Assembly: GCA_949710005.1 (NCBI GenBank)
Contig: OX453282.1
Coordinates: 19,702,561-19,766,560 of the forward strand
From: Ricordea florida
Taxonomy: Eukaryota; Cnidaria; Anthozoa; Corallimorpharia; Ricordeidae
Length of the DNA stretch: 64,000 bases
Direction of reading: 5' to 3'
Below, piece after piece: positions 3,737 to 32,139 of this stretch. The number at the start of each line of letters is the position of its first letter. Within the stretch, counting starts at the first letter, position 1. A program made the translations under genes and the position numbers. The notes beneath the pieces were generated by a model that saw nothing but the letters and a program-made list of their open reading frames with translations, made no database searches and was not told where the DNA came from.

Positions 3737-3915
3737 AGAGAGTGGTAAAACTACGGGACTAGGACAGCAAAATTTCGTGAAAAATTTCGTGAAAAATTTC
3801 GTGAAAAAATCCGTGAAAAATCCGTGAAAAATCCGTGAAAAAAATTTGAGTTTTTAATTACGGTTTAAAGATAAAATTATAATTAATTTAAATAATGGAA
3901 AACGCGAATATCAAC
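3737..3915 (+). repeat. E1 left terminal inverted repeat (179 bp)
   Basis: It matches the reverse complement of 19448-19626 over its whole length. It contains subterminal iterated words (three of about 12 bp with TTTCGTGAAAAA, then three of about 11 bp with TCCGTGAAAAA), then TTTAAAGATAAAATT, and ends seven codons into the first gene. The start codon of the terminal gene therefore lies inside the repeat. Confidence 0.9.
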
Positions 3916-4188
3916 ATACCAAATGAAATTATATTATCCAAAGTAAAAAATAAATATAATTGCGTTCATGGAAAGTATAAATATCGATGTAAAGAGTGTG
4001 GAGGATCTCAAATGTGCATTCATGAGAGATATAAATATCGATGTAAAGAGTGTAAAGGATCTCAAATATGCGAACACGGAAAGGTTAAATATCAGTGTAA
4101 AGAGTGTGGAGGATCACAAATATGCGAACACGGTAAACAAAAAGCTTCTTGTAAGGAATGTAGATTAAAAATTAGAAATGAATTATGA
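3895..4188 (+). CDS. CxH/CxxC zinc-ribbon repeat protein
   Basis: This 97-residue protein is built from four ~18-residue repeats of the form C-x-H-(G/E)-(K/R)-x-K-x3-C-K-E-C-(G/K)-G-S-Q. Each supplies Cys and His ligands for a small zinc-binding module. Similar repeats occur in proteins of protists and large DNA viruses; their function is not established, and nucleic-acid binding is a guess. The first seven residues come from the terminal inverted repeat and are identical to the start of the polymerase N-terminal frame at the opposite end. The E2 counterpart (37133-37534) has four repeats plus an N-terminal helical domain missing here. Confidence 0.7.
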   Translation: MENANINIPNEIILSKVKNKYNCVHGKYKYRCKECGGSQMCIHERYKYRCKECKGSQICEHGKVKYQCKECGGSQICEHGKQKASCKECRLKIRNEL

Positions 4189-4220
4189 TTTAAAGATAAA
4201 AATAAAATATAAAAAAAAAT

Positions 4221-4757
4221 ATGGATATAGATAGAAAGATTGAGTTGAAATATCTTAATGAAAAAAGACTGGGTGTTCATGATTTTATAGAATCAATCAA
4301 GACAGATTTGTTATACAATATCTCAAAAAACCGCGATTTTATTGATGAAGAAAGTAAAATAATTTATTTTGAAATTTGGCATACTGATAATAATAATGAT
4401 AAATGGTTTCTTAGTTTTTTCAATGGTATAAAAAAATTTGATGAAGGTGACATATGTACTGATAAGTTTGCTAGAGATTTATTACATTATGCTAATCATT
4501 ATTATTCTATATGGTTGGATATTGTTGATTTTAATGTTGAAGATTATAAGATAGAACATAGTATTAATGATTTTATTATTATTTCATTTAAGGTTACCTT
4601 ATACATAGATTATTATAAGATATCACATAAACGTAAATTTTACAAAGACTTGTATAAGGATTTAATGGAAGTAGCGTGGGATACAGATAGAGTTTTAGAT
4701 TGGTGTCTTGATTTTGAGGGGTCAAGGGATTTGAAAGAACGTTGGAGGAAAAATTAA
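4221..4757 (+). CDS. E1 accessory protein, 178 aa (paralogue A)
   Basis: I do not recognise the family. The protein is acidic and rich in aromatic and Ile/Asp residues, with no signal peptide or membrane segment. Its C-terminus carries HKRKFYKDLYKDLM followed by AWDTDRVLDWCLDFE, closely mirrored in the next gene, so the two are diverged tandem paralogues. A closing W-x2-x-R-x3-W-C-x-D-x-E pattern reminds me of short C-terminal motifs in nucleocytoplasmic large DNA virus proteins, but this is unverified. It has its own upstream box GATTTAAAGATAAAAAT (from about 4188). Element 2 has no counterpart, so it is a cargo gene. Confidence 0.6.
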   Translation: MDIDRKIELKYLNEKRLGVHDFIESIKTDLLYNISKNRDFIDEESKIIYFEIWHTDNNNDKWFLSFFNGIKKFDEGDICTDKFARDLLHYANHYYSIWLDIVDFNVEDYKIEHSINDFIIISFKVTLYIDYYKISHKRKFYKDLYKDLMEVAWDTDRVLDWCLDFEGSRDLKERWRKN

Positions 4758-4769
4758 GTTATATAAAAA

Positions 4770-5333
4770 ATGAATTATGATTTAAAATATAAAATAAATA
4801 AAATGAATGTTAAGTTGAATAGAAAAATAAAAAAAATAAATATTGGTTTTACTATTGAATATTTTAACACTGAAAGAATTAATAATATGAATTTTTTGAG
4901 ATTAATAAAAAAAGATTGTTTATACACACTATCAAAAGCACTTTCTATTAAATATGAGGATAAAGAACTAGTGGATTTTCAAATTGAGTATACTCAAGAT
5001 AATGGGGTTAAATATTATTTTCCTTTTTCTTTTACCCCAAAATGTGATATGAGTGGTATATTCCCAGCTGATGAATTTTCTAATGATTTTTTAAATGACC
5101 GTGAGGAAGCTACAAAATTTAGAAATGCTTTAATTGATAATAAAAAAATTTTTATTGATTCTTTTTGGGTATGTATACATACAAACACAGATAAAGTATT
5201 ACATAAAAATAAATTCTATAAAAGTTTACACAATGAAATAATAAAAGCAGCATGGCATCCGAGTAGGTATTTAAATTGGTGTGTTGATATAGAGGAGTTA
5301 AAGTTTTTGAAAGAGTTATGGGGTGAAGATTAA
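4770..5333 (+). CDS. E1 accessory protein, 187 aa (paralogue B)
   Basis: Unrecognised protein, paralogous to the gene 12 bp upstream. The two share HK-x-KFYK near residue 150 and a C-terminal AWHPSRYLNWCVDIE block. The N-terminus is Lys/Asn-rich and may start later, at the Met of MNVKLNR or MNFLRL. No membrane segment is evident. The short spacing and shared orientation suggest co-transcription with the upstream paralogue. The pair is absent from element 2, where the penton gene lies directly beside the zinc-ribbon gene. Confidence 0.6.
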   Translation: MNYDLKYKINKMNVKLNRKIKKINIGFTIEYFNTERINNMNFLRLIKKDCLYTLSKALSIKYEDKELVDFQIEYTQDNGVKYYFPFSFTPKCDMSGIFPADEFSNDFLNDREEATKFRNALIDNKKIFIDSFWVCIHTNTDKVLHKNKFYKSLHNEIIKAAWHPSRYLNWCVDIEELKFLKELWGED

Positions 5334-5347
5334 TTAAAACTAATTAT

Positions 5348-5376
5348 GTTATATAACCCAAAAATGGTTACATAAC
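5348..5376. terminator. Paired 10-bp palindromes at a convergent junction
   Basis: GTTATATAAC and GTTACATAAC, separated by 9 bp, lie between the accessory gene ending at 5333 and the penton gene ending at 5385, which converge. The same paired arrangement occurs next to the penton gene of element 2. The position fits a bidirectional terminator or processing site; function is inferred. Confidence 0.45.
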
Positions 5377-5384
5377 AAAAAAAT

Positions 5385-6020
5385 TTACCTAAATCTTAAA
5401 CTAAAAGTTATGGGAGAACCCTTAAGATCAAGTTTTTTCCATTCATTGTCTAATATGCTTAAATCAAAGTGGTTTATAACGCTATCATATTTTCTAACCG
5501 GAATTGTTGGATAATCTTTTGAGGGTATGTTTGCAAGTAGGGTTGATGGTGAGAGTTTCACAAGTTCTCCATATTTTGTTTTATTCATATATGAAGACTT
5601 ATTATCCACTATACTACACATAAGTCTCAGTGGTTCCTTAATTTGTATATTTATAGGGTATAATTTACCAGGATTTATAATTTCAGGCACCCCCAAACCA
5701 ATCGACAACGCTCTAGTAAGTTTAATGTTAAAGTTCTTATTTGAATATAGATAGTCAACAGTATCAGTCTCAATTATTGTTATCTTTTCCCTATCAGTAT
5801 CTTTTAGAAAGATCGATTGAATATCACGCAACGAATATGTGCCGGGTTGTATTATTATGATGGCTTGATTCTTTTCATTGTATAATACCTGTTGATCCTT
5901 GAAATTAATCAATCTTTTGGTTTTTATATTACAATCCAGGAGTTGTATCTCTCGAAGATTTTTAAGTGGGGGATCTAAATATATCCTAGTTTCAGACTCA
6001 TACATGGTAATGCTCAACAT
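5385..6020 (-). CDS. Penton-like minor capsid protein (single jelly roll)
   Basis: This 211-residue protein matches the size and texture of the Polinton/adintovirus minor capsid (penton) protein, which forms the five-fold vertices. It is beta-rich, with IIIIQPGTYSLRDIQSIF near residues 54-71 and the closing signature W-K-K-L-D-L-K-G-x-P-I-T-F-S-L-R-F-R, typical of the last strands of these jelly rolls. Element 2 carries a counterpart of equal length (36461-37096). The start MLSITMYESE is conserved in both; a second Met (residue 6) is possible. It follows the conserved non-coding block at 6074-6269. Confidence 0.75.
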   Translation of the reverse strand: MLSITMYESETRIYLDPPLKNLREIQLLDCNIKTKRLINFKDQQVLYNEKNQAIIIIQPGTYSLRDIQSIFLKDTDREKITIIETDTVDYLYSNKNFNIKLTRALSIGLGVPEIINPGKLYPINIQIKEPLRLMCSIVDNKSSYMNKTKYGELVKLSPSTLLANIPSKDYPTIPVRKYDSVINHFDLSILDNEWKKLDLKGSPITFSLRFR

Positions 6021-6028
6021 TTTGTTTT

Positions 6029-6039
6029 CAGCGAAGCTG
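6029..6039. repeat. GC-rich triloop mini-hairpin
   Basis: CAGC-GAA-GCTG, a 4-bp stem with a three-base loop, lies just upstream of the penton start and directly beside TCTTTAGATC. It belongs to a dispersed set found in both elements. Confidence 0.5.
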
Positions 6040-6073
6040 GTCTTTAGATCTGATTACTCCATATTCATCTTTT

Positions 6074-6269
6074 AAATTTTGCATTGACGTAATCACATTC
6101 CTGAGCGACGTTAGAAACCGACCTTTTAAAAGTAAACATAAAATCTACTTTCAAACTTTAAAACCACTTTACATTTTTCTTGTTGCTATGTCGTAAAAGT
6201 ATGCAATCTATTGTTCTACACGTGAACACTAATTTACAAACAATGATAATCACGTGAAATACTCATGAA
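6074..6269 (-). promoter_or_regulatory. Conserved non-coding block of E1
   Basis: This intergenic block between the tail-anchored protein gene and the penton gene is about 95% identical to E2 36146-36340. The part at 6179-6260 is identical over 82 bp, although neighbouring coding DNA is visibly more diverged. It contains two CACGTG palindromes about 36 bp apart and an ATTACGTCA site resembling ATF/CREB targets. It could be a promoter/enhancer, an RNA, or a packaging or replication signal. Confidence 0.65.
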
Positions 6270-7829
6270 CTACCGAAATAGATACCACGCTAAACAACCA
6301 GCGATAATTATAAATGCTAATATATTCTTTTCATGTTGTGTTGTTTCAATATCGGATGATCTATTTTCCTGCTTCATCGAGTCTGTTTTCGTTGAGGGTT
6401 TTGACTCCTTAGTTTCAGTTTTTCCTCCAAGGAGAATATGAGGTAACTTTAACTTTGAAGATCCTAAGTTATGATTTATTCCAACCTGTTTTGTTTCAGT
6501 GTTTAGGGAATTATTCACACCAAAATTCATATCATTACTCGCTTTCATAAGTTTGTTGTTAAAACCTGTCACGCTTTCAGTATTGATTATCATATTACTC
6601 GGCATCAACCACACACCAGGAGCAACAGCTAAATCAAGCCGTAATTTCGCTTCTTGTACAGCTAATTGATACCTTTGGATAGAACTAGAAATGTCATTCT
6701 CGATCACACTACTTTCAAATAAAGCCAAGAATTCTTGTTGTGTTTCGATTGCGCCACCACCATTACCATAAATCGAGTTTCTAGTGTTAACTTGTGCTCC
6801 CAATATACAATAGACAAAAGCTTCAGCAGATCTATTCAATCTACCAAGCCCAGCTTTAGTGAGCCCATGTCCGCTTGTTGGGATAAACCAAGCATATTTG
6901 AAATCAGCAAAGTCATCGTTACGGATAAATGAAATGAGATTACCCTTTTCTTTCTTACCCCCTTCATCAGCGAATTTTCCACCCTCACCTGGCCATTGAT
7001 CTGCTTCAACATCATAATTCCTTACAACATGTACGTTTTGATATCCCCCTCCTTTTCCATGATATCCCGCGCCATAATCAAGGAATATATCTCCCAATCC
7101 TCCATTTCTTCCTCCTTTCCATCTAAAATCGGAATTATTATCAATTCCAAATTCAGCGCACAATCGTTGATATGCAACTTTACTATATGGATTATTATTT
7201 ATCACAAAAGGTTGCTCATCAGGTAAAGGAAGGCTTAATTCATACAGTATTCGCCTTATTGTGAAATACACATGAAACTTGATAAAGCTACTCACTACTT
7301 TGGGATAATTTAAACTTTCAAAAGGACTAATCCCACAACCAGATGTTGCACACCAAACTGCAAAGTTAAGTTGTTGCGGCCAATAATTCATATCAGGGGC
7401 GTTCAACCATTTTCTACTCTTCTTTCCAAATTTGAAAGTTACAACTTGTGATGTAAATATGTTTCTCATCTTTGCTGTAAATTTCTTCGTATTTGACACG
7501 TATATATCAAGCGAGGTTAGCATTTTTGTTATATCAGTTGAAAAGTCATCAAAATTAACAGCCGGTATTGGATAAGTTCGATTAGTCAATGTTAAACTTT
7601 CAGGAAATGAACTAAATTCTTCGTCATTCAAACCCAAATCTTTCCATAAAAGCCTTTTAATACTAGGTGATATGTCATCAGTCCATGTTTTTCCAGTAGG
7701 ATCATCATTTGTCATTATTGTTGTTCCATCAACTTTCCATTTAATATAACCACCATACGAATCATTAACAAATGTAAATTTATCAAGGTTAGACTTTGGA
7801 TATCTATTTCTAAAATCATTGAGTAACAT
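6270..7829 (-). CDS. Tail-anchored conserved element protein, 519 aa
   Basis: I cannot name this protein but it is among the best conserved between the two elements. It has a globular N-terminal two-thirds with YWPQQLNFAVWCATSGCGIS around residues 145-165, a Gly-rich central stretch near 235-290 (GGRNGGLGDIFLDYG, GEGGKFADEGGKK), and helical VQEAKLRLDLA. After a Ser/Thr/Lys-rich linker it ends in one hydrophobic helix with a short basic tail (ILAFIIIAGCLAWYLFR). There is no signal peptide, so it is a tail-anchored membrane protein. Lying between penton and other membrane genes, it is likely a virion component; a role at a membrane or vertex is inference. Confidence 0.6.
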   Translation of the reverse strand: MLLNDFRNRYPKSNLDKFTFVNDSYGGYIKWKVDGTTIMTNDDPTGKTWTDDISPSIKRLLWKDLGLNDEEFSSFPESLTLTNRTYPIPAVNFDDFSTDITKMLTSLDIYVSNTKKFTAKMRNIFTSQVVTFKFGKKSRKWLNAPDMNYWPQQLNFAVWCATSGCGISPFESLNYPKVVSSFIKFHVYFTIRRILYELSLPLPDEQPFVINNNPYSKVAYQRLCAEFGIDNNSDFRWKGGRNGGLGDIFLDYGAGYHGKGGGYQNVHVVRNYDVEADQWPGEGGKFADEGGKKEKGNLISFIRNDDFADFKYAWFIPTSGHGLTKAGLGRLNRSAEAFVYCILGAQVNTRNSIYGNGGGAIETQQEFLALFESSVIENDISSSIQRYQLAVQEAKLRLDLAVAPGVWLMPSNMIINTESVTGFNNKLMKASNDMNFGVNNSLNTETKQVGINHNLGSSKLKLPHILLGGKTETKESKPSTKTDSMKQENRSSDIETTQHEKNILAFIIIAGCLAWYLFR

Positions 7830-7859
7830 TTTATTCTTTATGTTTACTTCGCTTCGCTC

Positions 7860-7873
7860 AGGTCTTTAGACCT
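7860..7873. repeat. Palindrome AGGTCT-TT-AGACCT
   Basis: Perfect 6-bp stem with a 2-base loop upstream of the 519-aa gene. The TCTTTAGA core is also the complement of the promoter-like TCTAAAGA box, so it may be regulatory. Confidence 0.45.
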
Positions 7874-7960
7874 AGAATAAGATGTAAAGTCTTTAAAACA
7901 GTTCTTTCCGATAACCAGTAAAACAATTAAATCCCACATCTGTTCTCTCATATGAAATTT

Positions 7961-8584
7961 TCAACGATCTCGACTTACCAATTCCTTTAATATTTCCTCT
8001 CGAACCTCTGTTCTTATCTGATTCATATTTAAGTTTTTTTCTGTATCTTTCCTGGTTTTTTGGCGGATTTCTAGTTTTAGTTTTTCAAACTTATCCACCT
8101 CCGATAAAATTAGAGAAAATTCTTGGTCTGATATAGCGTTATCTTTTAGAGCCTTTGAAACCAAGCCGTGAATGGTGTTTACTTTTGCTTTTGCCAAAGA
8201 AACTGTCTGTTCATGTTTACTAACTTTATGAGAAAGCTGTTTAGAAGCCGCACCGAATCCAACCGATATTCCTCCACAAATACCTCCCACAGCTCCTAAT
8301 GGTATGCCAACAACAGCACCAAAACCAGTAAGGGAAGTTCCAAGCCCACTTGCAGATAGAATAACTGAAAAAACCCCACTACAAACACTGATTTTTGTAA
8401 ATATACCTCTTGCTCTATTGTATTTTTTCCTAACATCCTCGTAATGTTTAATTTCTTTCTCAAGATTTTGTAATACTTCACTCGATTTTTGTAGTCTGAA
8501 ATTAACTGCTTGATTGGCATTATTAGGTAGTTGAGGATAAATCGAGGGCTCTGCTTTACCGTAAATTCTATTGTACTCATCCAT
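7961..8584 (-). CDS. Coiled-coil protein with Gly-rich membrane hairpin, 207 aa
   Basis: Unnamed but conserved in both elements. Residues ~30-62 form a charged helix (NLEKEIKHYEDVRKKYN), ~63-120 a Gly/Ser/Val-rich hydrophobic double segment (GVFSVILSASGLGTSLTGFG, PLGAVGGICGGISVG), and ~120-205 another charged helix. The layout is that of a membrane hairpin between two helical arms, as in pore-lining or membrane-remodelling proteins; no function can be assigned. It is preceded by a TCTAAAGAT box at 8607-8618 (minus strand). I infer a virion membrane protein. Confidence 0.6.
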   Translation of the reverse strand: MDEYNRIYGKAEPSIYPQLPNNANQAVNFRLQKSSEVLQNLEKEIKHYEDVRKKYNRARGIFTKISVCSGVFSVILSASGLGTSLTGFGAVVGIPLGAVGGICGGISVGFGAASKQLSHKVSKHEQTVSLAKAKVNTIHGLVSKALKDNAISDQEFSLILSEVDKFEKLKLEIRQKTRKDTEKNLNMNQIRTEVREEILKELVSRDR

Positions 8585-8623
8585 ATTGTATTTTACTGAT
8601 CAACACGATATCTTTAGATCTAC

Positions 8624-9649
8624 TTACTTTCTCTTCTTTTTAAACTGTTCCACAAAATATATAACCACAGCCATTATCAACAACCAAGCATTCTTACCTA
8701 AAAAGCTAATAACCTCACCCGCTGTTTTGAATAAAAAGCTTACAATAGCACCAACCATCCCTGGTAATATTTCACCTAGTTTTTTACCTATAGCTTTCAA
8801 TCCATTTCCAACGCCTTTCCCTAAAGTAGATAGACCTTTAGAAAGATTAGAAACTATAACACCAATAACCACCCCTGCAGCACTTACAACTGAAAATAAT
8901 GTAAAACCATACTTTTTGAATATGTATTTTATCTTATCTCTTAATCCCATTCTTTCCCAAACTCTTTCTCTCTCATTCTCTAGGCTGGCTATCTCATTTC
9001 TCTCTTCAGTATTTTCTATACTCAGATTTTCAAGTTCGTTTTCTTCTTGTATACTTCTATTATTTTTGTTTTCTAGAGATTTTTCCCTCTCAATATTTTC
9101 TCTTTGTGCTTCTTTTCTTTTTTCTATTTCATTATCATAAGCTTCAACAATTTTTGGCGCTCTTTCACCTAAAGCTTTTTTCAATTGAGCAGGAAGTTCC
9201 CTATTCTTACGCTTTAATGCCCTTACTTCGCCATTTACAAGAATATAATCAGCAGGATTACCTCTTTTTAAATTAATAACTGGTATAACAATTTTTGTCA
9301 CATCATCTCTTTTCAATTTTATGATTATTTCAAAGAGGTCTACATTAGGGTAGTTATTTTTTAGTTCTTTTTCAAAATCATCTATTATAATTTGTTCATC
9401 TTTGATTTTTTCTTCAATAACATTCATCTCTATTTCTTCTACTGTTAATTTTGTATATCCTTTTTTGGTTTTTGGTGTAGCGCCCTCATCCTCATAACTC
9501 CTTTCACCTCTGGTTGTAGATGTTAATCGAACTGATGATTTTGATGGTTTTCTACCAAGTAGTGAATTTTTGTCATCAAAATCATCAGGATCATCTTCTT
9601 CCCCCAATCCAATAGGATCGTCTTTTGGTACTTCTGGTAATTCTGCCAT
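8624..9649 (-). CDS. Coiled-coil, triple-hydrophobic-segment protein, 341 aa
   Basis: The N-terminal ~80 residues are acidic and disordered. Residues ~80-230 are charged and helical with coiled-coil character (EREKSLENKNNRSIQEENEL). The C-terminal 100 residues hold three hydrophobic segments (FSVVSAAGVVIGVIVSNL; PGMVGAIVSFLFKTAGEVI; NAWLLIMAVVIYFVEQ) separated by Gly/Lys linkers such as LGKGVGNGLKAIGKKLGE, and a basic tail. The C-terminal block is nearly identical in E2 while the N-terminal part differs in length (341 against 399 residues). This suggests a conserved membrane module carrying a variable stalk. Its role is unknown; a virion membrane protein is inferred. Confidence 0.6.
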   Translation of the reverse strand: MAELPEVPKDDPIGLGEEDDPDDFDDKNSLLGRKPSKSSVRLTSTTRGERSYEDEGATPKTKKGYTKLTVEEIEMNVIEEKIKDEQIIIDDFEKELKNNYPNVDLFEIIIKLKRDDVTKIVIPVINLKRGNPADYILVNGEVRALKRKNRELPAQLKKALGERAPKIVEAYDNEIEKRKEAQRENIEREKSLENKNNRSIQEENELENLSIENTEERNEIASLENERERVWERMGLRDKIKYIFKKYGFTLFSVVSAAGVVIGVIVSNLSKGLSTLGKGVGNGLKAIGKKLGEILPGMVGAIVSFLFKTAGEVISFLGKNAWLLIMAVVIYFVEQFKKKRK

Positions 9650-9665
9650 GATTTTTTACTCATCA

Positions 9666-9681
9666 GTAAGAAATCTTTAGA
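9666..9681 (-). promoter_or_regulatory. TCTAAAGATTTCTTAC box upstream of the 341-aa gene
   Basis: On the minus strand the box TCTAAAGATTTCTTAC is followed by TGATGAGTAAAAAATC and the ATG. The same layout precedes several E2 genes. It is probably a promoter element. Confidence 0.55.
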
Positions 9682-9745
9682 CCTAAAAGTTATGTTTGTA
9701 AATAATTATGATTTAAATATATAAAATAAAATATAAAATATAACA

Positions 9746-10063
9746 ATGGAATTTAAAATGTTTAATAACCTTAATGATTTTAGTGAACATCTTTGGTTTG
9801 ATACTCTAAGAAAAATTAGTAATGAACAAAAAATTTCATTTGATGACTTGTTATTGTTACGAAATATTTCTGTTTGTTTAAAAGATAGAGAAAAACTAGA
9901 AAAATTATTTACCTTAATTAAAATGATTCCTGAATCAAGTGAAAATGGAGAATATATTTGTCGCGGGGATGAAAAAATAGAAAAAATTTTTAAGTTGGTG
10001 GATAATGATATTAATTCTGAAACTTGGGGTGAAACTTTATTGGAAGAAGAGATTAATTTCTAA
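9746..10063 (+). CDS. E1 accessory protein, 105 aa
   Basis: Unrecognised acidic helical protein, encoded opposite to its neighbours in a pocket between two minus-strand genes. In element 2 the equivalent junction (32550-32602) is only 51 bp, so this gene was inserted into E1 or lost from E2. It has its own AT-rich upstream region (AAATATATAAAATAAAATA). No membrane segment, signal peptide or known motif is visible. Confidence 0.5.
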   Translation: MEFKMFNNLNDFSEHLWFDTLRKISNEQKISFDDLLLLRNISVCLKDREKLEKLFTLIKMIPESSENGEYICRGDEKIEKIFKLVDNDINSETWGETLLEEEINF

Positions 10064-10098
10064 ACTTTAATTATAAAACAATTAATGTTTTTTATAAT

Positions 10099-10491
10099 TT
10101 AAAATAATTTACTAGCTGCATACCCCAACGCCAACATTCCTCCACCAACATATGCCATTTCACCCATCTTTTGATTGTTACTAGGTCTATAATAATCTGA
10201 AAATTTTGGTTCGTGCATTTGACTATACAATTCTAATGCTTCATCAGTTTTTGAAAGATTTTTTGAGGCTTGGTATTTATCATCTTTTTGTTTAATTTTC
10301 CAATCAATTAGTTTCTGTCTATTTTCCTGATATTCGGCGTAATCTTTTTGATACTTTTCTAGTGCTTTATCATGTCTTATTCGTTCTGTATCGGTTTTAT
10401 CACCAGATAGATATTTTGCAAGATATGATCCACCAACAAAAGCTGTTGCATTTAATACAGCCCCACCTAACATCATTGCTATTGTTGCCAT
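10099..10491 (-). CDS. Membrane protein with two terminal hydrophobic helices, 130 aa
   Basis: The N-terminal helix (IAMMLGGAVLNATAFVGGSY) and a C-terminal helix (MAYVGGGMLALGYAASKLF) flank a charged helical middle rich in Lys/Gln/Asp, with the motif FSDYYRPS-x-NQKMGE before the second helix. The counterpart in E2 is 136 residues. It lies 2 bp after the 72-residue gene in both elements, indicating coupled expression. I do not recognise a family with known function; a virion membrane role is inferred. Confidence 0.6.
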   Translation of the reverse strand: MATIAMMLGGAVLNATAFVGGSYLAKYLSGDKTDTERIRHDKALEKYQKDYAEYQENRQKLIDWKIKQKDDKYQASKNLSKTDEALELYSQMHEPKFSDYYRPSNNQKMGEMAYVGGGMLALGYAASKLF

Positions 10492-10493
10492 AA

Positions 10494-10712
10494 TTATTTT
10501 GGTAAAATATTTTGATCCTCTAAATATGTTTTTAGATACATACTACCAGACAATACAGCTACCCATTTTGCATAATTTGTAATACTTGATGATGGGTCGT
10601 TCATAAATGATTCTTTCATAGCCTTTTTTGCTACATAGCCAACAGCAGCCGCTAAACCGATAAGTACTGCCGAATCAGTAACAGTTTTCACAAGTTTGTT
10701 TTCAGTTGACAT
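10494..10712 (-). CDS. Small two-helix membrane protein, 72 aa
   Basis: A short protein with two hydrophobic segments (SAVLIGLAAAVGYVAKKA and AKWVAVLSGSMYLKTYL) linked by SFMNDPSSSITN, ending EDQNILPK. The E2 counterpart differs at only a few positions, so it is a real, selected gene despite its size. It has the conserved promoter-like box at 10729-10744 and is tightly spaced to the next gene. Function unknown. Confidence 0.6.
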   Translation of the reverse strand: MSTENKLVKTVTDSAVLIGLAAAVGYVAKKAMKESFMNDPSSSITNYAKWVAVLSGSMYLKTYLEDQNILPK

Positions 10713-10728
10713 AATTTTTACTGTATCA

Positions 10729-10744
10729 GTAAGAAACCTTTAAA
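10729..10744 (-). promoter_or_regulatory. TTTAAAGGTTTCTTAC box
   Basis: Followed on the minus strand by TGATACAGTAAAAATT and the ATG of the 72-aa gene. The E2 equivalent at 31885-31900 has the same downstream TGATACAGTAAAAA. It is probably a promoter element. Confidence 0.55.
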
Positions 10745-10749
10745 CCACA

Positions 10750-11268
10750 TCATATCATTCCTATTTTTGGTCGATCTAGCGGTTGCGATGCTGTAGGACA
10801 AGCAGGTATTCTATTTTTATTATCCTCCTTTTCAGCTTTACCGGTCTTTAGACTTTGTTGGTATCCGCTTTGCGGGGAGGGCTCCGCCCGATATCTCATA
10901 AAAATGTCAAATGCTGTAAACCCTATTCCAATAATGGATAATACAGTAGTAAAAGATAATTCTGGAATCCATGCCTTATTAGACTCACTTTCTCTATTTT
11001 CATTTTGATCTTGCTCCGCAGCCCTCAGGGTCTCTTCTCGTTTCATCTCCCTAGCCAATGCTTCTTTCGCTTTTTTGTTATATTCTGCTAATTTCTTACC
11101 AGCAGCAACCTTTTTAGGATCTTTTACCCTCTTTTTACGTTCTTTATCTTTAACAACAGGATCCGCCGTAATTTGCTCCGCATAGCGGGGAGGCCCTTCG
11201 GGCCGATCAACAACTTCTGTTCCCCCTTCACTCCGGCTTTGCTCGATTTGTTCAGTTTGGTCAGACAT
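10750..11268 (-). CDS. Basic single-pass membrane protein, 172 aa
   Basis: A Lys/Arg-rich helical domain (KKVAAGKKLAEYNKKAKEAL, residues ~50-70) is followed by a charged stretch and one hydrophobic segment (FTTVLSIIGIGFTAFDIFM, ~108-126). Element 2 has a 149-residue version (31426-31875). The extra residues in E1 near the N-terminus (RPEGPPRYAE) and after the membrane segment (AEPSPQSGYQQS) are encoded by GC-rich hairpin insertions, so small palindromes have entered the gene in frame. The basic domain suggests contact with DNA or an acidic partner at a membrane; this is inference. Confidence 0.6.
   Translation of the reverse strand: MSDQTEQIEQSRSEGGTEVVDRPEGPPRYAEQITADPVVKDKERKKRVKDPKKVAAGKKLAEYNKKAKEALAREMKREETLRAAEQDQNENRESESNKAWIPELSFTTVLSIIGIGFTAFDIFMRYRAEPSPQSGYQQSLKTGKAEKEDNKNRIPACPTASQPLDRPKIGMI
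10865..10889. repeat. Double GC-rich triloop hairpin inside a gene
   Basis: CCGC-TTT-GCGG is immediately followed by GGGC-TCC-GCCC. Both lie within the 172-residue protein gene and are absent from the E2 copy. Confidence 0.6.
11178..11204. repeat. Double GC-rich triloop hairpin inside a gene
   Basis: CCGC-ATA-GCGG then GGCCC-TTC-GGGCC, near the N-terminal end of the same 172-residue gene. The E2 gene lacks both and is shorter there. Confidence 0.6.
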
Positions 11269-11287
11269 TATTATTTTATTTCACAAA

Positions 11288-11303
11288 GTAAAGAATCTTT
11301 AAA
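11288..11303 (-). promoter_or_regulatory. TTTAAAGATTCTTTAC box
   Basis: Upstream of the 172-aa gene; followed by TTTGTGAAATAAAATAATA and ATG, as at E2 31391-31425. It is probably a promoter element. Confidence 0.55.
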
Positions 11304-11313
11304 TCAGTTGTGC

Positions 11314-11907
11314 TCAGTAAACAGTATCAGACCCGCTTGCATCTTGCTTACTAGTCTTCTCGGTTGTGTTTGAAATCTCTTGATTTTTATGTTCAGTTGT
11401 ACTTGTAAATTGTTGATTTTTGTTGAATTTAATGTGTTTAGCAACCTGAAATAGCCCACTAGCAAGTGCTGCCAATCTTCCTGCTTTCAATGCTAAAAGC
11501 CCTACAATGTTTGTTAGTTCACGATTAACCAGATCATCATTCTTCAAATCATCACAAAGAGCTTCTATATCATCCACAGGAACCATGTAAGAAATAACTT
11601 TAGAAACTAATTGAAGAGATGAATCTACCAACCCGCCATTAATTTTCTTACCCAATACTGCTTGGTATCGATTATAATATTTATCAACATCTTTCACTGA
11701 TAATTTTTTTATATCACCTAGACTCATATCAACACCTAAATATTCTTTTGTGGTTCCAAGAGCTGCTAGAATAGCCAGTGATTCTTGTTTGATTTCAAGT
11801 TCATGTTCCTCTCTTCGTTCGGTATCATAATTATCTTTTACTCCAGTCTTTTCTTCCTCTATATCCTTCAGATCAGCAGAGCCGATATAATCTTCTACAC
11901 CTGTCAT
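11314..11907 (-). CDS. Conserved helical element protein, 197 aa
   Basis: Not a family I can name. The N-terminal ~45 residues are charged and variable, and the C-terminal ~40 are polar. The middle (~50-160) is strongly conserved with E2: KQESLAILAALGTTKEYLGV, YYNRYQAVLGKK, VISYMVPVDDIEALCDDL and LKAGRLAALASGLFQVAKHI. The last is an amphipathic or weakly hydrophobic helix. It sits between the packaging ATPase and the membrane-protein block in both elements, which suggests a morphogenesis or virion role. Confidence 0.6.
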   Translation of the reverse strand: MTGVEDYIGSADLKDIEEEKTGVKDNYDTERREEHELEIKQESLAILAALGTTKEYLGVDMSLGDIKKLSVKDVDKYYNRYQAVLGKKINGGLVDSSLQLVSKVISYMVPVDDIEALCDDLKNDDLVNRELTNIVGLLALKAGRLAALASGLFQVAKHIKFNKNQQFTSTTEHKNQEISNTTEKTSKQDASGSDTVY

Positions 11908-11945
11908 CTTATAATTTTCTAATAATACAAAGATTCTTTTAAATC

Positions 11946-11954
11946 GGCTACGCC
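11946..11954. repeat. Triloop mini-hairpin at the ATPase 3' end
   Basis: GGC-TAC-GCC encodes or overlaps the ATPase stop region. The E2 ATPase instead ends in a longer set of hairpins (30729-30784), which changes its C-terminus. Confidence 0.45.
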
Positions 11955-12574
11955 CCGTTTGGAACTTCCAAATAACAATTAAATGGGTGACGTAAAGATA
12001 AGCAAAGTCTAGAGTATTTTTCAGTTTTCAGGAGTTGTACAAACTTTTTACTAGTTTCAGGGTCTAAATCACCCCCATAATCTTCAAAAAACATCTTCAT
12101 ACCTTTCTGAGAGGGATTATGAAATGAAACAACGCAAGCTACATTTTCACGAAATGGTTTTGCTATCGATGTTAATTGCTGAGTGAGAACCCAAACTGAT
12201 AATCCATGATGCCTTCCAGAAAATGCTAAATCTATAAACTTGTTTGATCGCTTCTTCAAATCATTCGAAACAGCACAATCATCTAAAATTATTAGTGTAT
12301 TTGTTCCAGAGAATAAAGTTTGACAAGCAGTTAATAACTCATTAATCTCATCAATGTTACTAGCATCTGGTGATAATACAAAGAAATTTTTATCTCCTCG
12401 AGCAAAATTATGATATGTTTTATTTTTAGAATAAGTTGGGCATATTAAAACAATGAATTCAAACAATTTTCGAAATGGACCCCGTAGTTGATCTATAATG
12501 TACTTTGTCTTTCCACAATTTGTTGGACCTGTTATAATACAGTGAAAAGGAATTTTATCTCGCAATTCTTCCAT
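11948..12574 (-). CDS. A32-like (FtsK/HerA superfamily) DNA-packaging ATPase
   Basis: This 208-residue P-loop ATPase is expected to pump the element genome into preformed capsids. Walker A is GPTNCGKT (residues 16-23). Walker B is LIILDD (94-99), with the two acidic residues at 98-99. A downstream VLTQQL (~129-134) supplies the polar sensor typical of this superfamily. Length is normal for Polinton/adintovirus ATPases. It is transcribed after the major capsid gene with a 33-bp gap. The E2 copy is clearly orthologous but has a longer C-terminus. Confidence 0.85.
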   Translation of the reverse strand: MEELRDKIPFHCIITGPTNCGKTKYIIDQLRGPFRKLFEFIVLICPTYSKNKTYHNFARGDKNFFVLSPDASNIDEINELLTACQTLFSGTNTLIILDDCAVSNDLKKRSNKFIDLAFSGRHHGLSVWVLTQQLTSIAKPFRENVACVVSFHNPSQKGMKMFFEDYGGDLDPETSKKFVQLLKTEKYSRLCLSLRHPFNCYLEVPNGA

Positions 12575-12607
12575 GATTTTTTTTGTATCATAACATAAGG
12601 TTTTAAG

Positions 12608-13891
12608 TTAATACATGATTGATCTTAAGTTTGAATTCATAACCTCCATTAATGCGTCAGCTACAACAAACATATAACAAGTAATAACACCAGACCCACC
12701 AACTTTTCTTCTCATTTCTATTTTTATACCATCTTGTGCATTGTTTAAGGCTAGACCACCTCCATGAATACCATTATCTGGGTGAGTTCTCAAATCTATC
12801 CACAGGGCAAACTTGTTATTATAAAAATCCTTTTCTTTTACCGACCAACGGGAGGAACCTGACCATCGATCAAATCCGGAATGGGAGGAACCTTCTGGAA
12901 GAACGAAGCGTTTCTTTATTGACTCGCAGAAGTCTGAAGGCGCCATCCCCTTAGAGTAAAAACGGTTTGGCACGCCATTAACATCAATATTAATTGAGGT
13001 GAAACCTGGATTTAAAAACCTCTCAGAATTTTTTTCCCCTCCCGCGTATGGTAATATAAACAAACATAATATCCCTGTAATTGACCTTCTGGGGAGATTA
13101 ATATGTTGATTTATAACACCGTCATTAGGTCTGGATATGGTGAAAGTTTTGTGTAGAGTGACATTCTCGTACAAGAATCCTTTACCAACCTGATAAGCTG
13201 CCTGTGCCTCACGAGCTAAGTATTCGCTTGATATACAAGAATATTCCAACTCAAGGTTTTTGATTTTATAAGTTGGAATCTTGGTCGCGTCAGAATAAAC
13301 AACAATATCGTTAACTGGAGCTAGTGTAATCTCAAAGATTAGTTGATGATCTAATGCCTTTGGGTAGAAAACTCCATGATCTTTGAGTATAGGATGATTT
13401 AGCGGGATATGGTACTTGGTGTTATGTACTGCTGCAAGAGCCACTTCATTTGCATCTGTGTCTACTTTATCACCTGCATTTGTCCGGAGCTTCCTCATGT
13501 TTCTAGAAGAAATACCTTGTTTTAATCTATCCTCACGTTCTTCATCTGTTAAGAATAAGTCATGGTATGTTTGAAAAAGATCGTATCTTTGAGTATCCTG
13601 TAGTGTTTCACCCCCAAAAAGAACTTTGAGTCTGGATACAAGGTTACTACTTACATTATTCACAAGGGTGTTATCTTCATGACCATCAACAGTCAAGTTA
13701 AATACTAGATATACACTTCCTGGTACAATCACTAAATTTTCAGAAAGTTTAGGAATATTTATATATAGTGTTTCTCCCGGATTAGCTGATGAAGGATTTA
13801 GTGTAACTCGGTTTAATATTGATTCCGCTTTCAACCCTAGTGGATCTCTTGGAATCCTGTTTGGGTTAATTTTTTCAGATACGGTTGTCAT
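12608..13891 (-). CDS. Major capsid protein, double jelly roll
   Basis: This 427-residue protein is the best candidate for the hexon-like capsid subunit. The N-terminal strands (ETLYINIPKLSENLVIVPGS) and the phrase VNN-x4-L-V-S-R-L-K-V-L-F-G-G followed by DTQRYDLFQTYHDLFL have the shape of the first jelly-roll barrel and its clamp loop in Polinton and polinton-like virus capsid proteins. A second beta-rich half follows from about residue 230. It is shorter than many Polinton capsid proteins. Its position beside the ATPase and divergent from the integrase supports the call. No transmembrane segment is seen. Confidence 0.75.
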   Translation of the reverse strand: MTTVSEKINPNRIPRDPLGLKAESILNRVTLNPSSANPGETLYINIPKLSENLVIVPGSVYLVFNLTVDGHEDNTLVNNVSSNLVSRLKVLFGGETLQDTQRYDLFQTYHDLFLTDEEREDRLKQGISSRNMRKLRTNAGDKVDTDANEVALAAVHNTKYHIPLNHPILKDHGVFYPKALDHQLIFEITLAPVNDIVVYSDATKIPTYKIKNLELEYSCISSEYLAREAQAAYQVGKGFLYENVTLHKTFTISRPNDGVINQHINLPRRSITGILCLFILPYAGGEKNSERFLNPGFTSINIDVNGVPNRFYSKGMAPSDFCESIKKRFVLPEGSSHSGFDRWSGSSRWSVKEKDFYNNKFALWIDLRTHPDNGIHGGGLALNNAQDGIKIEMRRKVGGSGVITCYMFVVADALMEVMNSNLRSIMY

Positions 13892-13924
13892 ATTTATTTA
13901 TAAGATACTTTGGTTAATCTTTAA
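13892..13924. promoter_or_regulatory. Divergent capsid/integrase intergenic region
   Basis: Only 33 bp separate the divergently transcribed major capsid and integrase genes. It contains TTAATCTTTAAA next to the integrase ATG, read on the other strand as TTTAAAGATTAA. The equivalent E2 region (28788-28821) keeps the same box, so it is a likely shared promoter core. Confidence 0.5.
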
Positions 13925-14941
13925 ATGAGTAACGAAAACATATCCCAAAGGTTATCAAAAAATTTTAGTAGGATATATTATTCAACTGAAGGGTATTGGA
14001 AAGGATATTCTGCAATTAATAAATTAGCTGAAAAGACTAAAGTAAGTGAAAATTATGCAAAACAATGGCTTCAGAAACAAGCAATATGGCAAATATATCT
14101 TCCAGCTCCAAAATATATCCCTAGACCGCACTGGGTTGTAGATAAACCTAATCAGATTCACCAAGCGGATTTATTATTTTTACCGCATGATAGAGTTGGA
14201 AGAAAAACATATCGATATGCATTAGTTGTGGTTGATGTAGCCTCTAGATACAAAGATGCACAGCCATTAACCTCAAAAGAAAGTCGAGAAATTTCAAATG
14301 CTTTTGAAAAAATATATTCAAGGAAGTTAAAATACCCAAAAACATTAATGGTTGATCCTGGAAGAGAATTTATGGGTGATGTAACAAAACTTATGAATTA
14401 CCATAATGTAAACATTCAAAGAAGTGAAGCTGGAAATCATAGAGCACAGGCTTTTGTTGAAAGGGCAAATAAAATATTAGGTGAAAGATTATTTAGTCAT
14501 CAATATGCACAAGAAATGCTTCAGAATGAAAGGTCAAGAGTATGGGTGAAACTATTACCATATATTTTAAAAACTTTGAACAATACACCAACAAGAATAA
14601 CTGATAAAGAGCCAGATAAAGCTATAAAACAGAAAGAAGTGGAACTTGAAACCAAAAGATATAATCGAGTTGTTGGTGTTGATGAGGTAAGATTATCTCC
14701 TTTTGTTAGAGTTAGATATTTATTATCTCCTGGAGAACTTGAGGGCGGTGAAAAAAGACGGGCTACTGATCCTATTTGGAGCATCAAAGTTTATGATATT
14801 TCTAGAAGTGTTATTTCACCTAATCAACCAGTTTTGTATTATTTAGTAGACGGTCCTAGACGAGGATTTGTAAGGGAAGAATTGCAGGTTATTCCTTATG
14901 ATACTGAGTTACCTCCTAATTCTGTTTTGGAACGGGTGTAG
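13925..14941 (+). CDS. Retroviral-type DDE integrase
   Basis: This 338-residue rve-superfamily integrase would cut and join the element ends and make the short target duplication seen outside the terminal repeats. An N-terminal helix-turn-helix-like part (~25-52) precedes the RNase-H fold core. Catalytic residues are visible as D82 (HQADLLFLP), D144 (LMVDPGREF) and E179 (AFVERAN), with 34 residues between the last two, the classic D-x34/35-E spacing. The C-terminal ~90 residues form a small beta domain. The 3' end overlaps the polymerase 3' end by 26 bp, convergently, as in E2. Confidence 0.9.
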   Translation: MSNENISQRLSKNFSRIYYSTEGYWKGYSAINKLAEKTKVSENYAKQWLQKQAIWQIYLPAPKYIPRPHWVVDKPNQIHQADLLFLPHDRVGRKTYRYALVVVDVASRYKDAQPLTSKESREISNAFEKIYSRKLKYPKTLMVDPGREFMGDVTKLMNYHNVNIQRSEAGNHRAQAFVERANKILGERLFSHQYAQEMLQNERSRVWVKLLPYILKTLNNTPTRITDKEPDKAIKQKEVELETKRYNRVVGVDEVRLSPFVRVRYLLSPGELEGGEKRRATDPIWSIKVYDISRSVISPNQPVLYYLVDGPRRGFVREELQVIPYDTELPPNSVLERV

Positions 14942-17900
14942 CCCTCCCCAGCTTAGCTGGAAAGATAATATTACAATCATCATCTATTTTTATATCCAAA
15001 CTATAATGTCCATATGGAAGAGTATTTATTCCATCTTCTTCAACATATCTCTTATCATCGGTTGGGTTTAGTGCAATTTTATTAATGATTTGTGTGTAAA
15101 CATTATGTTTTTCTGTTCTAATTAAGTTCTGTTTTCTCATTTGTGATTTTCTATTTAATACACAATCTCTGAAATCATTAAAACTCATATCTTTCTCAAT
15201 TACTGATTTCTTTGTTCCTTTATTCTTTTTTATCTCTTCACCATTAGCCATTTTTACACTATATTGTTTAGCACCAGACCCTGCAAACTCTTCAGCTATC
15301 ATTCCACCAAACTCATCTTTCATAATTCCAATTACTTTTTTGTTTACGCCAGTCTCAATCCCGGAAGGGTGATATTTGGGGTAATTACTAGTATCAAACA
15401 TTTCTCTGACGTCAGGGTTAATATCTTTGTAGAAATCTTCTGTTTCTATATGATAAACAAGGCTATCTGTATCTGTCATAAGTAATTTTGCTTTTTCTCC
15501 ATATTTCTTTTTAATATAATTATAATGAAAATCATACATTATTTGTTTGCTTCGATCTAAAATGCAAAACCCCACATAAATTGGTTTATTAAAATTTATC
15601 TTTATTTTCTTCATCTTTATTCCAACTAGATTATCAGAAAAGATAGTAAAACCATCAAAGCTGGGTTTTTTTACTAGTTTTTTTGCTTCTTTTTCATTAG
15701 TAACTAATCTAAAATCTATCCTTTTTCTTACATTTTCCATCGTTTTACCAAATACAGAATTGTTCATTAACTTGAAGAAATCTTTTTCAAAATCATTCTT
15801 TGCTTGAGATCTTAGTTTAGTATTCAAATCAATGTAGGGTTTTAACCACGCTGACTCTTTGAATTTGAGAACTTTATGTATCTTTGTTATTTCTAATCCC
15901 TCACTTTCATAAAATTTTAACGTTTCATGATGAACAACATAATATTTCTTATCAAATAAGTTTGGAATTAATTTCTGTACTTTATTAACAGTTAGTTTTT
16001 CTGGAGCTAGGGGGTAATCTTTATGTAAATCATGGAGATGTTTTGGGTATTTCAAATCAACCATAAGTATGCAGGGATTATCTCTCCAATTTTTAAACTC
16101 CTCTTTTTTCACCCATTCAAAACCATGGGTGGGAAGATTTCCACTCATTCCTGCTCCATATAAGTTATTTGCATCAAGATAAATAATATATGATGTGATT
16201 AGACTTGATATAAAATTTTCCATATATGGATTGTTGGCTTTAGCATGTCTCTTTGATATTTGTGCAACTCCACCTCTAATACCTTTCTCAATAAAAAGTA
16301 ACATATCAACATCAGTAAACAACTCCAATTTAACTTTGGTTAATTTTAACATTGCATCCCATGCCAGTCCTGGTGATGTAAAATAGTGGGCCGGATCTAA
16401 ATCATAATTCTTTTGACAAATATCTCTGAAATTCTCAAATACATCAGCTAAAAATAATGTGTCTGTCATAAGATAAAGATCGTGATATTCTCGCATTGAT
16501 TTAATGTTAAAGATATCAAATATATTTTGTGCGTGTTTGTAATCTTCTTCATTTATATCTTCATCATTTAGTTTTGAGTAAAATGCCTCCTTTGGCGGAA
16601 GTTTAGTTTCATTAAGCTTGTTAAGACTGTCAAAATAATCATAAGGAAATACCCCCTTCCTCAACAATAAATATGTCTTATCTCCAAATACTTTTTTTAT
16701 TTCTTTTAATTCATCATCTTTTGGGGAAAGACATCTTTTATCAACTAACATACATGTATCACATTTTTTGCATCTACCAATACCTTTATACTCTTCAACT
16801 TTCCCGTCTTTTTCATATATCTTCAAACAATCACCTGGTTTGCAAGTTTTACACTTTCCACATTTTGTAAGATTTTCAACTAATTTTCCAAGGCTGGTGG
16901 ACATAAATTTTAAAGAATCAATAAACCTTATAGTTATATTAATAGGATTACCATTATCATAATGTCCCATTAAAATTTTCTTTGAAAAACTAATATACCT
17001 TTCTTCAGTATTGGCTATACATTCTATTTTTCCTTTTGTTGAACAAAGATTCTTAATAAATAAATGTGAATCATATCCAGACATATTATGAGCTATTACT
17101 GGTATGAAATTAGGTATTTTATAATTTATATTGCAACTATCATGTGCCGCACCTCTATACTTTCCTGTAAGATGACAATGATCTATTACTTTTTTATGTT
17201 TTTTATTTTTACTTTCTGTAAATTTACCCTCGCAGATATGGCAGTGAGATGCATTTTCATATTCATTCTTAATTTCTTCCGACATGTTTTTCTTATCATA
17301 GAATCTAAACTTTTCTTTTCTTTCTTCCATTATTTTGTGAATTTTTCTAATATCCCCTTCCAAATATTCTACAAATATCTTTCCCACATCATCCTCATCA
17401 GATTTTGCAGTATATTGTACAATTTGATTAAAATCTGGCGGTAATAGGCTATCATCAAAACAAACGATTTTATAACAGAATCCAGATGCTTTATGTAGTT
17501 GATATTTTTTAGTAAAACTTTTAATATCTCTTGGTGAACATGTATGTATTAGTATTAGTCGACTTTCAAAGTCCAAATAAATAACAAAGGGTGCTCGCAT
17601 TTTATGTTTAAAATTTTTAAAAATAACGAATTTTGGGCTTCCATCTTTATTCTTTACCATATCAATTATAACTTCTCCGTTTGTATCACAATATTTTCTA
17701 TGTTCGTATAAATGTATTTTTTCATAAAATGAATTGAAACATCTGAGGCAAAAATATTTTTTGTTTTTGTTTTTATCAATTTCAGAGGATAATAATCTAC
17801 TAATATCCGTTATTAGACAATAGTGGCTTGCTCCATCATCATAAGATACCAAAAGCAGATTTAGAACTTTACAGCTACATAGTTTACATTCATCTTTGTT

Positions 17901-18845: not shown

Positions 18846-19468
18846 CTATTCCTCCTCTTTCTATTCCTCCTCTTTCTTTTTTTTGTTTTATCCTCGCCTA
18901 TAGTTGATTCTTCTTCTTTTTCGGGTTTTATTTTAGGTTTAACACCTTCTTTCTCATAATCTCTAAAACTTTCTGTAATTGTTGTATTGGTTTTTTGTAA
19001 CTGAGCTTGTAGTCTTTGTATTTTTTCTTGATTTTTTTGTATTTGTTCTTCTTGTTGTTTTATTTTAGTTTGTTCTTCTATTTGTTCTTCTAGTTTTCTT
19101 ATTTGTTCTTCTTGTTGTTTTATTTTTTGATTATAATAGGTTTTTGATTGATAAATATTTTTCTCAACTCTAGTTTTAGGTTTTGAAATAGGTCTAGGAA
19201 TAAGACTTGCTTTTTTAGTATTTAAAACATCTTGGGTTTGTTTTCTTGGAATACGAGGTCTTGGATTTAATATCTCTGGTGTTTGCGGTCTATCATCAAT
19301 AAGTCCTCGCCGGTGATTTTCCAAATCTTCAATTGTATGAATTCCCAATTCACCCAATGCTTCAATTTTTCTTGCTTTACGCATTTCATGCCAATTAGGT
19401 AATTTTAATTCTTTTACAATTTTCTTCAATTCAGCATCTTTTAATTGGTTGATATTCGCGTTTTCCAT
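18821..19468 (-). CDS. Polymerase N-terminal part, frameshifted
   Basis: This 215-residue frame begins in the right terminal repeat. It has a SAP/Rho-N-like helical N-terminus (LKDAELKKIVKELKL, MRKARKIEALGELG), a Pro/Arg linker, a long Gln/Glu coiled coil (~115-165) and a basic tail (KKRKRRNRKRRNRKKKK). It stops at 18821, overlapping the polymerase frame by about 25 bp at an A8 run (18834-18841, minus strand). In E2 the same region is continuous with the polymerase, so this is its N-terminal domain. Either one base was lost from the run or a -1 ribosomal slip at A-AAA-AAG joins the frames. Confidence 0.7.
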   Translation of the reverse strand: MENANINQLKDAELKKIVKELKLPNWHEMRKARKIEALGELGIHTIEDLENHRRGLIDDRPQTPEILNPRPRIPRKQTQDVLNTKKASLIPRPISKPKTRVEKNIYQSKTYYNQKIKQQEEQIRKLEEQIEEQTKIKQQEEQIQKNQEKIQRLQAQLQKTNTTITESFRDYEKEGVKPKIKPEKEEESTIGEDKTKKRKRRNRKRRNRKKKKIKS

Positions 19469-19626
19469 TATTTAAATTAATTATAATTTTATCTTTAAAC
19501 CGTAATTAAAAACTCAAATTTTTTTCACGGATTTTTCACGGATTTTTCACGGATTTTTTCACGAAATTTTTCACGAAATTTTTCACGAAATTTTGCTGTC
19601 CTAGTCCCGTAGTTTTACCACTCTCT
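19448..19626 (-). repeat. E1 right terminal inverted repeat (179 bp)
   Basis: Inverted copy of 3737-3915. On the minus strand it carries the same promoter-like sequence, start codon and first seven codons (MENANIN), here leading into the polymerase N-terminal frame rather than the CxH repeat protein. Confidence 0.9.
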
Positions 19627-23154: not shown

Positions 23155-23423
23155 AGAGAGTATATAATGCCGATTCTAGGCCAGTTTTGTGAAAATTGTG
23201 AAAATTGTGAAAATTGTGAAAATTACGAAAAATGTGAAAAATTGTGAAAAATTATCCAAAGATTTATCAAGGATTTATCAGAGAATTTATAGGGGGGGGG
23301 AAATTAATCATAAATTTACAAAAAAAATTCAACGTAAATTTATCAAGGATTTTATCAGAGGTGGTAAAAATAAAATTTTGAAATTGTGATTTAAAAAAGA
23401 AGAATTATTTTATAAAAAATGGA
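23155..23423 (+). repeat. E2 left terminal inverted repeat
   Basis: Contains three full GAAAATTGT units and a variant, a G9 run, GATTTAAAAAAGAAGAATT and the start ATGGA of the polymerase. Compared with the right copy it has two fewer 9-bp units and three more G, which explains its 15-bp shorter length. Confidence 0.9.
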
Positions 23424-28787: not shown

Positions 28788-28821
28788 TTAAAGATTAATC
28801 CACCCTTCCTTAAAATAAAAT

Positions 28822-30090: not shown

Positions 30091-30117
30091 TTAAAAGAAA
30101 GACCCGAAGGAAAAAAG

Positions 30118-30768: not shown

Positions 30769-30784
30769 CTGGTCGGCAAAGCCG
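30729..30784. repeat. Cluster of three triloop mini-hairpins
   Basis: CCC-TTC-GGG (30729-30737), CAGC-GTA-GCTG (30761-30771) and CGGC-AAA-GCCG (30774-30784) span the end of the ATPase gene and the following gap. Confidence 0.6.
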
Positions 30785-30821
30785 TTTTAAAAGAATCCAT
30801 GTTTTATTACAAAATTAAAAG

Positions 30822-31379: not shown

Positions 31380-31390
31380 GCATGATGTGA

Positions 31391-31406
31391 TTTAAAGATT
31401 TCTTAC
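31391..31406 (+). promoter_or_regulatory. TTTAAAGATTTCTTAC box
   Basis: Located 20 bp before ATG 31426. The E1 equivalent is 11288-11303. It is probably a promoter element. Confidence 0.55.
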
Positions 31407-31425
31407 TTTGTGAAATAAAATAATA

Positions 31426-31875: not shown

Positions 31876-31884
31876 GGAAAGTAG

Positions 31885-32137: not shown

Positions 32138-32139
32138 AC

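Follow-up and report, generated by a model that had tools for sequence, protein, structure and literature searches.

A conserved non-coding block in Polinton-type elements of Ricordea florida, a candidate enhancer-like regulatory module

The adenovirus major late promoter offers a described parallel to the DNA block analysed here. According to the excerpts of the account on which we draw (PMC10570711), a USF E-box, the palindrome CACGTG, lies near a core promoter of virion genes in adenovirus, and in our elements CACGTG likewise lies near a candidate core promoter. Adenovirus has a double-stranded DNA genome and a complement of capsid genes comparable to that of our elements. The same excerpts describe USF as able to tetramerise and to loop DNA, which would suit the two E-boxes of the block. 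The adenovirus promoter has one E-box close to a TATA box, whereas the block has two at 32 bp together with other long conserved stretches, stands at a variable distance from the core promoter and has binding sites that are predicted only. In mavirus and the EMALEs a TCTA motif in AT-rich surroundings recurs before genes, much as TYTAAAGA recurs in the two elements described below. The mavirus and EMALE motifs match a giant virus promoter, and the sections of that paper used here (PMC8547959) describe no long upstream module. Unlike these short motifs, the block is about 190 bp long and is found before one gene only. Polintons, also called Mavericks, share with our elements an integrase, an A32-like ATPase, inverted repeats and short target duplications, and in the part of the main text considered (PMC8097293), where ‘promoter’ occurs twice and ‘noncoding’ not at all, no conserved non-coding module is mentioned. 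Within the portion of the literature on Polinton and adintovirus promoters and conserved non-coding DNA that was covered, no cis-acting control DNA beyond short promoter motifs was found.

The near-absence of change in these non-coding bases, beside genes that drift, suggests a control switch bound by proteins. We favour the reading of the block as a cis-regulatory module acting at the DNA level, most likely a transcription enhancer or an upstream activating region, and give this reading roughly an even chance of being correct. Hundreds of block-bearing and block-free relatives at graded distances provide a natural footprinting set for such a control module.

The two elements and the block that they share

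The window, that is, the whole stretch of 64,000 nucleotides that was analysed, lies at 19.70 Mb of contig 11 in a genome of 538 Mb. It contains two integrated elements, E1 and E2 (Table 1), each with terminal inverted repeats and a 5-bp target duplication, in agreement with the terminal inverted repeats and 5-6 bp target duplications of Polintons. The rve integrase of E2 (5.5e-9) is above the Pfam cut-off and is of the retrovirus type, and that of E1 (1.3e-7, 32.2 bits) falls slightly below the cut-off of 32.6. E1 also encodes an A32-like packaging ATPase (2.6e-11), and its candidate for a double jelly-roll major capsid has a weak match to Capsid_N, under the cut-off (5e-4), and no PDB match. 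A protein-primed DNA polymerase B was sought in the 1262-aa ORF at 14916-18704, which had no Pfam match, no polymerase match in PDB and weak matches to endonuclease VII among PHROG. E1 and E2 are taken as Polinton/Maverick-type elements. They are 79-89% alike over most of the capsid side (window 5336-14934) and 66-76% alike at the end away from the penton gene (window 15021-18720), an unevenness as in mosaics that result from recombination.

The block has on one side the stop of a 519-531-aa gene, for which no family match was found in Pfam or PHROG, and on the other a 211-aa gene that we call penton-like (minor capsid), or penton gene for short, on the basis of a predicted structure. The AlphaFold model (pLDDT 80.6, pTM 0.56) matched penton and minor capsid proteins of MELD virus, giant viruses, mavirus and adomaviruses in Foldseek, with TM-scores of at most 0.52. 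Intact penton genes are very numerous genome-wide: a penton-start pattern has 2226 matches (control 0), and in four penton searches 150, 147, 149 and 147 of the 150 rows scored in each were stop-free. Pieces of the penton also occur inside open frames of 1919 aa (residues 1-160, C7:1819523-1820002) and 1884 aa (residues 1-185, C6:30414592-30415146), compared with the usual length of about 216 aa, and these are possible fusions.

Table 1. Positions in the window of the two elements, the block and its motifs, and the adjacent genes
Feature	Position	Strand	Basis or remark
Element E1, Polinton/Maverick-type	3737..19626		inverted repeats, TSD TCTGT, rve, A32-like ATPase
Element E2, Polinton/Maverick-type	23155..37813		inverted repeats, TSD CACTG, rve
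Block in E1, beginning just after the stop of the 519-aa gene	6074..6269	-	10/194 differences to E2
Block in E2	36146..36340	+	alignment to E1
First E-box CACGTG	E1 6251..6256; E2 36159-36164	- (E1)	motif scan
Second E-box CACGTG	E1 6219..6224; E2 36191-36196	- (E1)	32 bp from first
20-bp core used for counting	E1 6179..6198; E2 36217-36236	- (E1)	855 exact genome copies
TTACGTCA site in the second conserved core	E1 6085..6092; E2 36323-36330	- (E1)	motif scan
Tail after the block in E2	36341..36405	+	absent from E1
Core-promoter-like motif TTTAAAGA, E2	36426..36433	+	35 bp before penton ATG
Two core-promoter-like motifs, E1	6041..6076	-	-56 TTTAAAAGA and -28 TCTAAAGA before penton ATG
Penton-like (minor capsid) gene, E1, 211 aa	5385..6020	-	AlphaFold model and Foldseek
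Penton-like gene, E2, 211 aa	36461..37096	+	alignment to E1 gene
519-aa gene, E1, stop abuts block	6270..7829	-	no Pfam or PHROG match
519-aa gene counterpart in E2, 531-aa frame from TTG	34550..36145	+	reading frame

An earlier note on this DNA had put the difference between the two copies at about nine of 195 positions. Their near-identity holds, and the exact figure is 10 mismatches in 194 aligned columns plus one gap column. The identical run of 82 bp that it reported is present (6179-6260 in E1, 36155-36236 in E2), and the block does contain the two CACGTG palindromes and the TTACGTCA site that it named. Within E1 and E2, CACGTG is found only at the two block sites of each element. The looser pattern TKACGTMA, to which the TTACGTCA site belongs, has further matches in both elements and shows no enrichment over the window, 9 of 100 shuffles reaching the observed 7 matches. 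The greater divergence of the flanking genes is likewise real: between E1 and E2, fourfold sites differ at 52 of 161 (32%) in the upstream 519-aa gene and, in the penton gene, at 16 of 59 (27%), against 10/194 positions in the block. Gene conversion spanning coding DNA, which could have explained the identity of the two blocks, was not seen: the likeness of E1 and E2 falls outside the block, being 82% just upstream (36068-36117) and 38-59% at 35968-36067, and the region directly 3' of the block is mostly unalignable. The tail that follows the block in E2 also occurs in locus L131 and, 3' of the block, in penton-less copies such as L133. In an alignment with 28 copies that were retrieved for their resemblance to the E1 block, the other 28 rows lack it, and its region 36356-36385 consists of about 74% gaps in 27 copies selected by gene.

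Constraint on the block in other copies

A search with the block as query, in which the best 40 of 1107 candidates were scored (97-100% identity), yields a sample biased to block likeness. Claims about rates are made on copies picked by their penton gene, or by their position among the places of the exact 20-mer, with the 20-mer left out. With the E2 penton gene as query the best 40 of 3258 candidates were scored and 30 loci cut out, of which 28 have a block match and two (L067 and L069) do not. The penton frame is intact in 66 of 69 oriented sequences, E2 being included twice, as E2 and as L041.

The mean pairwise difference of the block is 0.046 in 27 of the gene-selected copies (L066 was left out of the 28). 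In these same copies the 519-aa gene, which was not selected, differs by 0.179 at third positions and 0.077 at first and second positions, and the penton gene, which was selected for likeness, by 0.105 and 0.024. For the 518 pairs (of 2145 pairs among 66 rows) with a penton fourfold difference of 0.3-0.4, the block difference is 0.065. Seven position-sampled copies of the penton type, with the core left out, differ by 0.067 in the block and 0.287 at penton fourfold sites. The block therefore changes at about one quarter of the fourfold or third-position rate in other family members, which upholds the functional constraint proposed earlier and goes against the possibility that it evolves as fast as synonymous sites. 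The constraint, to whose strength the note had pointed, is patchy. In the 27 copies the mean pairwise difference of 30-bp windows ranges from 0.002 to 0.099, so that parts of the block are no more conserved than coding DNA. Most of the change falls outside cores with sharp limits. When changes are placed on the penton tree, 135 of 205 block columns never change and others have nine or more changes (variance 7.5 around a mean of 1.29), the 205 columns being the block plus five bases on either side, with the last few poorly aligned. Strict fourfold sites (n=23) undergo 4.65 changes on average on the same tree.

Spacing within the block is nearly invariant in the 62 rows with both anchors readable. 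In 58 of 59 rows the stop and the core are 71 bp apart, and in 61 of 62 the core and the block end are 117 bp apart, whereas the distance from the block end to the penton ATG takes 29 different values between 35 and 152 bp. Both CACGTG sites are kept in 66 and GATTACGTCA in 68 of 75 copies. Conserved non-coding cores that resemble protein-binding sites are thus present in the block, the binding itself being predicted. The same deletion of about 19 bp in the block's variable linker is seen repeatedly, in copies both with and without a penton gene (L133, L134, L135, L137, L049 and L063).

The earlier note had also listed a structured RNA among the possibilities. A structured or small RNA is, in our estimate, highly improbable. 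RNAalifold on 80 distinct rows gave -12.8 for the strand opposite to the genes compared with -4.9 (sd 2.4, lowest -11.0) for two-column shuffles, beating 60 of 60, but -6.9 against -4.2 (sd 2.6) for the gene strand, and the z-scores of single sequences are -1.0 and +0.53. The paired columns are nearly invariant, a search for compensatory changes found none on both sides among the listed pairs (80 rows), no Rfam family reached its gathering score, and several copies carry the deletion of about 19 bp within the block. A dyad symmetry in the block was rejected (259 of 500 shuffles score at least as high), as was a small coding gene, the longest stop-free stretches in 198 bases having a median of 19-39 and a minimum of 11-27 codons, depending on the frame. 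An antisense frame at the block edge, whose ATG is present in 68 copies, is closed after 24 to 125 codons in 57 of these and was also discarded.

Distribution of the block and copies without a penton gene

The 20-bp core has 855 exact copies in the genome and its reversed control none. Upstream of more distant pentons the block was absent in 20 of 20 loci (L071-L090), 20 of 20 (L091-L110) and 13 of 20 (L111-L130), the last two sets overlapping in four places. In many block-free loci the stop of the upstream gene is, by eye, about 50 bp before the penton ATG with a core-promoter motif in between, and in others a different gene precedes the penton gene. At L071-L075, L080, L082, L086 and L102 this different gene is, also by eye, in the opposite orientation and takes the place of the 519-aa gene; gene order near the penton gene seems to be modular. 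No relatives of the block outside this genome were confirmed in viral contigs, and the exact 20-mer was not found in prokaryote genomes.

In an 88-tip penton tree, most of whose tips were chosen because they carry the block, a single crown of 78 tips (support 0.90) takes in every one of the 73 carriers, E2 being counted twice, and support within the carrier crown is often low. Five crown tips are not carriers. L116 and L117 have nothing at the site, L069 has other sequence, and in L067 (upstream of 1500) and L128 tandem repeats with units of roughly 50 bp form a cassette at the block's place upstream of the penton gene. The histories of block and penton agree only in part: the block shows 264 changes on the penton tree, 177 on its own tree and a mean of 479 with shuffled labels. 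Since the sampled sister lineages lack the block, it appears to have been gained in this clade and retained afterwards, and one gain with later losses or replacements is the simplest account.

The partial agreement of the two trees, and the fact that the site takes other inserts, would be consistent with a neutral segment recently spread through the family by recombination, without functional constraint. However, a young neutral segment should vary evenly, and the strongly uneven change among columns argues against neutral spread and has already largely refuted it. The confinement of carriers to one crown and the spacing that is fixed inside the block and free outside also count against this explanation, which we consider very unlikely.

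The block is not always followed by a penton gene. Among the 43 block places in the first 18.7 Mb of contig 1, a same-strand penton start lies within 600 bp of 22, and at one more (L132) a penton is present though missed by the pattern, which leaves 20 of 43 without a penton, a count that rests on the penton-start pattern and would include pentons too divergent for it. There is no pattern match within 16 kb of 19 of these 20 places, and at the remaining one the pattern matches the opposite strand at a distance of 13 kb. With 20 of 43 places lacking a penton downstream, promotion of the penton gene was rejected as the sole role of the block. In all 12 position-sampled loci (L131-L142) the end of the 519-aa gene precedes the block (by eye). 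A penton gene follows in seven and a convergent gene in five (L133-L137), which in four of these is a relative of the E2 SAP gene at 37133-37534 and in L136 a relative of the E1 genes at 4221-5333. A penton match of 26% identity in L136 overlies the block itself and was taken as chance. The L134 element ends in terminal-repeat sequence, where no penton was found (best tblastn E 0.20). Probes deeper into that element brought up the gene for a major capsid protein (76% over 264 aa) as well as the 519-aa gene (93%). L135 also has the 519-aa gene, and none of the 17 proteins tried there matched the capsid probe. Either element could still carry a penton gene elsewhere.

These arrangements bear on the main rival to the enhancer reading, which is that the block is a 3'-end element of the 519-aa gene: a signal in the mRNA 3'-UTR, a terminator, or a boundary to the downstream neighbour. 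The same gene end stands before the block in 12 of 12 loci whatever comes next, its stop lies at a constant distance, and the next gene is convergent in 5 of 12. Descent from one insertion would, however, give the same linkage, the same gene end occurs without the block in sister lineages, the conserved parts include palindromic DNA sites, and neither the E1 nor the E2 block shows an AATAAA. On balance a 3'-end role appears unlikely.

Constraint with and without a penton gene was compared over the interval from the first E-box to the second core, leaving out the 20-mer. Block differences are 6/141 for E1-E2, 14/121 for E1-L134, 15/122 for E1-L135 and 4/121 for L134-L135. The corresponding fourfold sites, taken from about 166 codons of the 519-aa gene, differ at 16/57, 29/58, 24/53 and 10/52. 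The resulting ratios, 0.15 to 0.27, show no clear rise without a penton, few copies being compared. The first E-box and its context have stayed intact in 19 of 23 copies with a penton and in 15 of 20 without one. The similar constraint in the few copies compared argues against a role limited to that of a penton promoter. Since sister lineages do without the block, it is not needed for penton expression as such, and its conservation without a penton fits an element acting at a distance.

Retention of the block without a nearby penton, at similar constraint ratios, would also be expected if the block were a cis-acting signal of this clade for packaging, replication or mobilisation, one that matters to the DNA itself. 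This is rather improbable, given the many relatives that have an intact penton gene but no block, and given that the block is some 2.2 kb (E1) and 1.5 kb (E2) away from the closer end of the element, outside the terminal repeats. A packaging or replication signal, one of the options in the earlier note, could in any case be specific to the clade, while the sister lineages that lack the block speak against a family-wide one. We also regard it as doubtful, though conceivable, that the block is a clade-specific mobilisation tag (a packaging, replication or expression signal) in a helper-satellite system inside one host genome. Penton-less Polintons would then keep the tag because it allows them to multiply with the help of penton-bearing relatives in the same genome. 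Whether penton-less elements live on helpers can be tested in this genome.

An enhancer-like module and a core-promoter-like motif

Among the functions raised in the earlier note, a regulatory DNA module fits best. Under the enhancer reading, one clade of an abundant Polinton-type family would have acquired the block between the 519-aa gene and the penton gene, where it would add an upstream region to TYTAAAGA core promoters and so raise transcription. With two palindromic E-boxes 32 bp apart, TTACGTCA and long stretches that do not vary, the block resembles a set of binding sites for several proteins. Host factors, presumably of the bHLH type, would bind both CACGTG sites, and a factor that we take to be bZIP (CREB/ATF-type) would bind TTACGTCA. 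The target would be the penton gene where one is present and, elsewhere, other structural genes of the same element; we favour the view that the enhancer-like block can act on more than one promoter. We count for this reading the 10/194 differences in the block against 32% and 27% at fourfold sites, the fixed inner spacing, the E-boxes kept in 66 of 75 copies and the promoter motifs at 17 of 23 genes. Against it we count the 12/12 linkage to the 519-aa gene, which also fits a 3'-end role, the sister lineages that manage without the block, and the fact that TTACGTCA-type sites are not rare in the window.

The motif TYTAAAGA, with up to three more A, is found 10-60 bp before the ATG of 17 of 23 genes, in the same sequences in which it was first noticed and with four of 27 starts left out (three TTG starts and 4770). 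Shuffles gave a mean of 0.59 and a maximum of 4 in 1000, and the other strand gave 1. We regard the motif as a candidate for an element-wide core promoter. Places of this motif type include 8611, 9674, 11296 and 13918 in E1 and 28787, 31391, 32569 and 36426 in E2.
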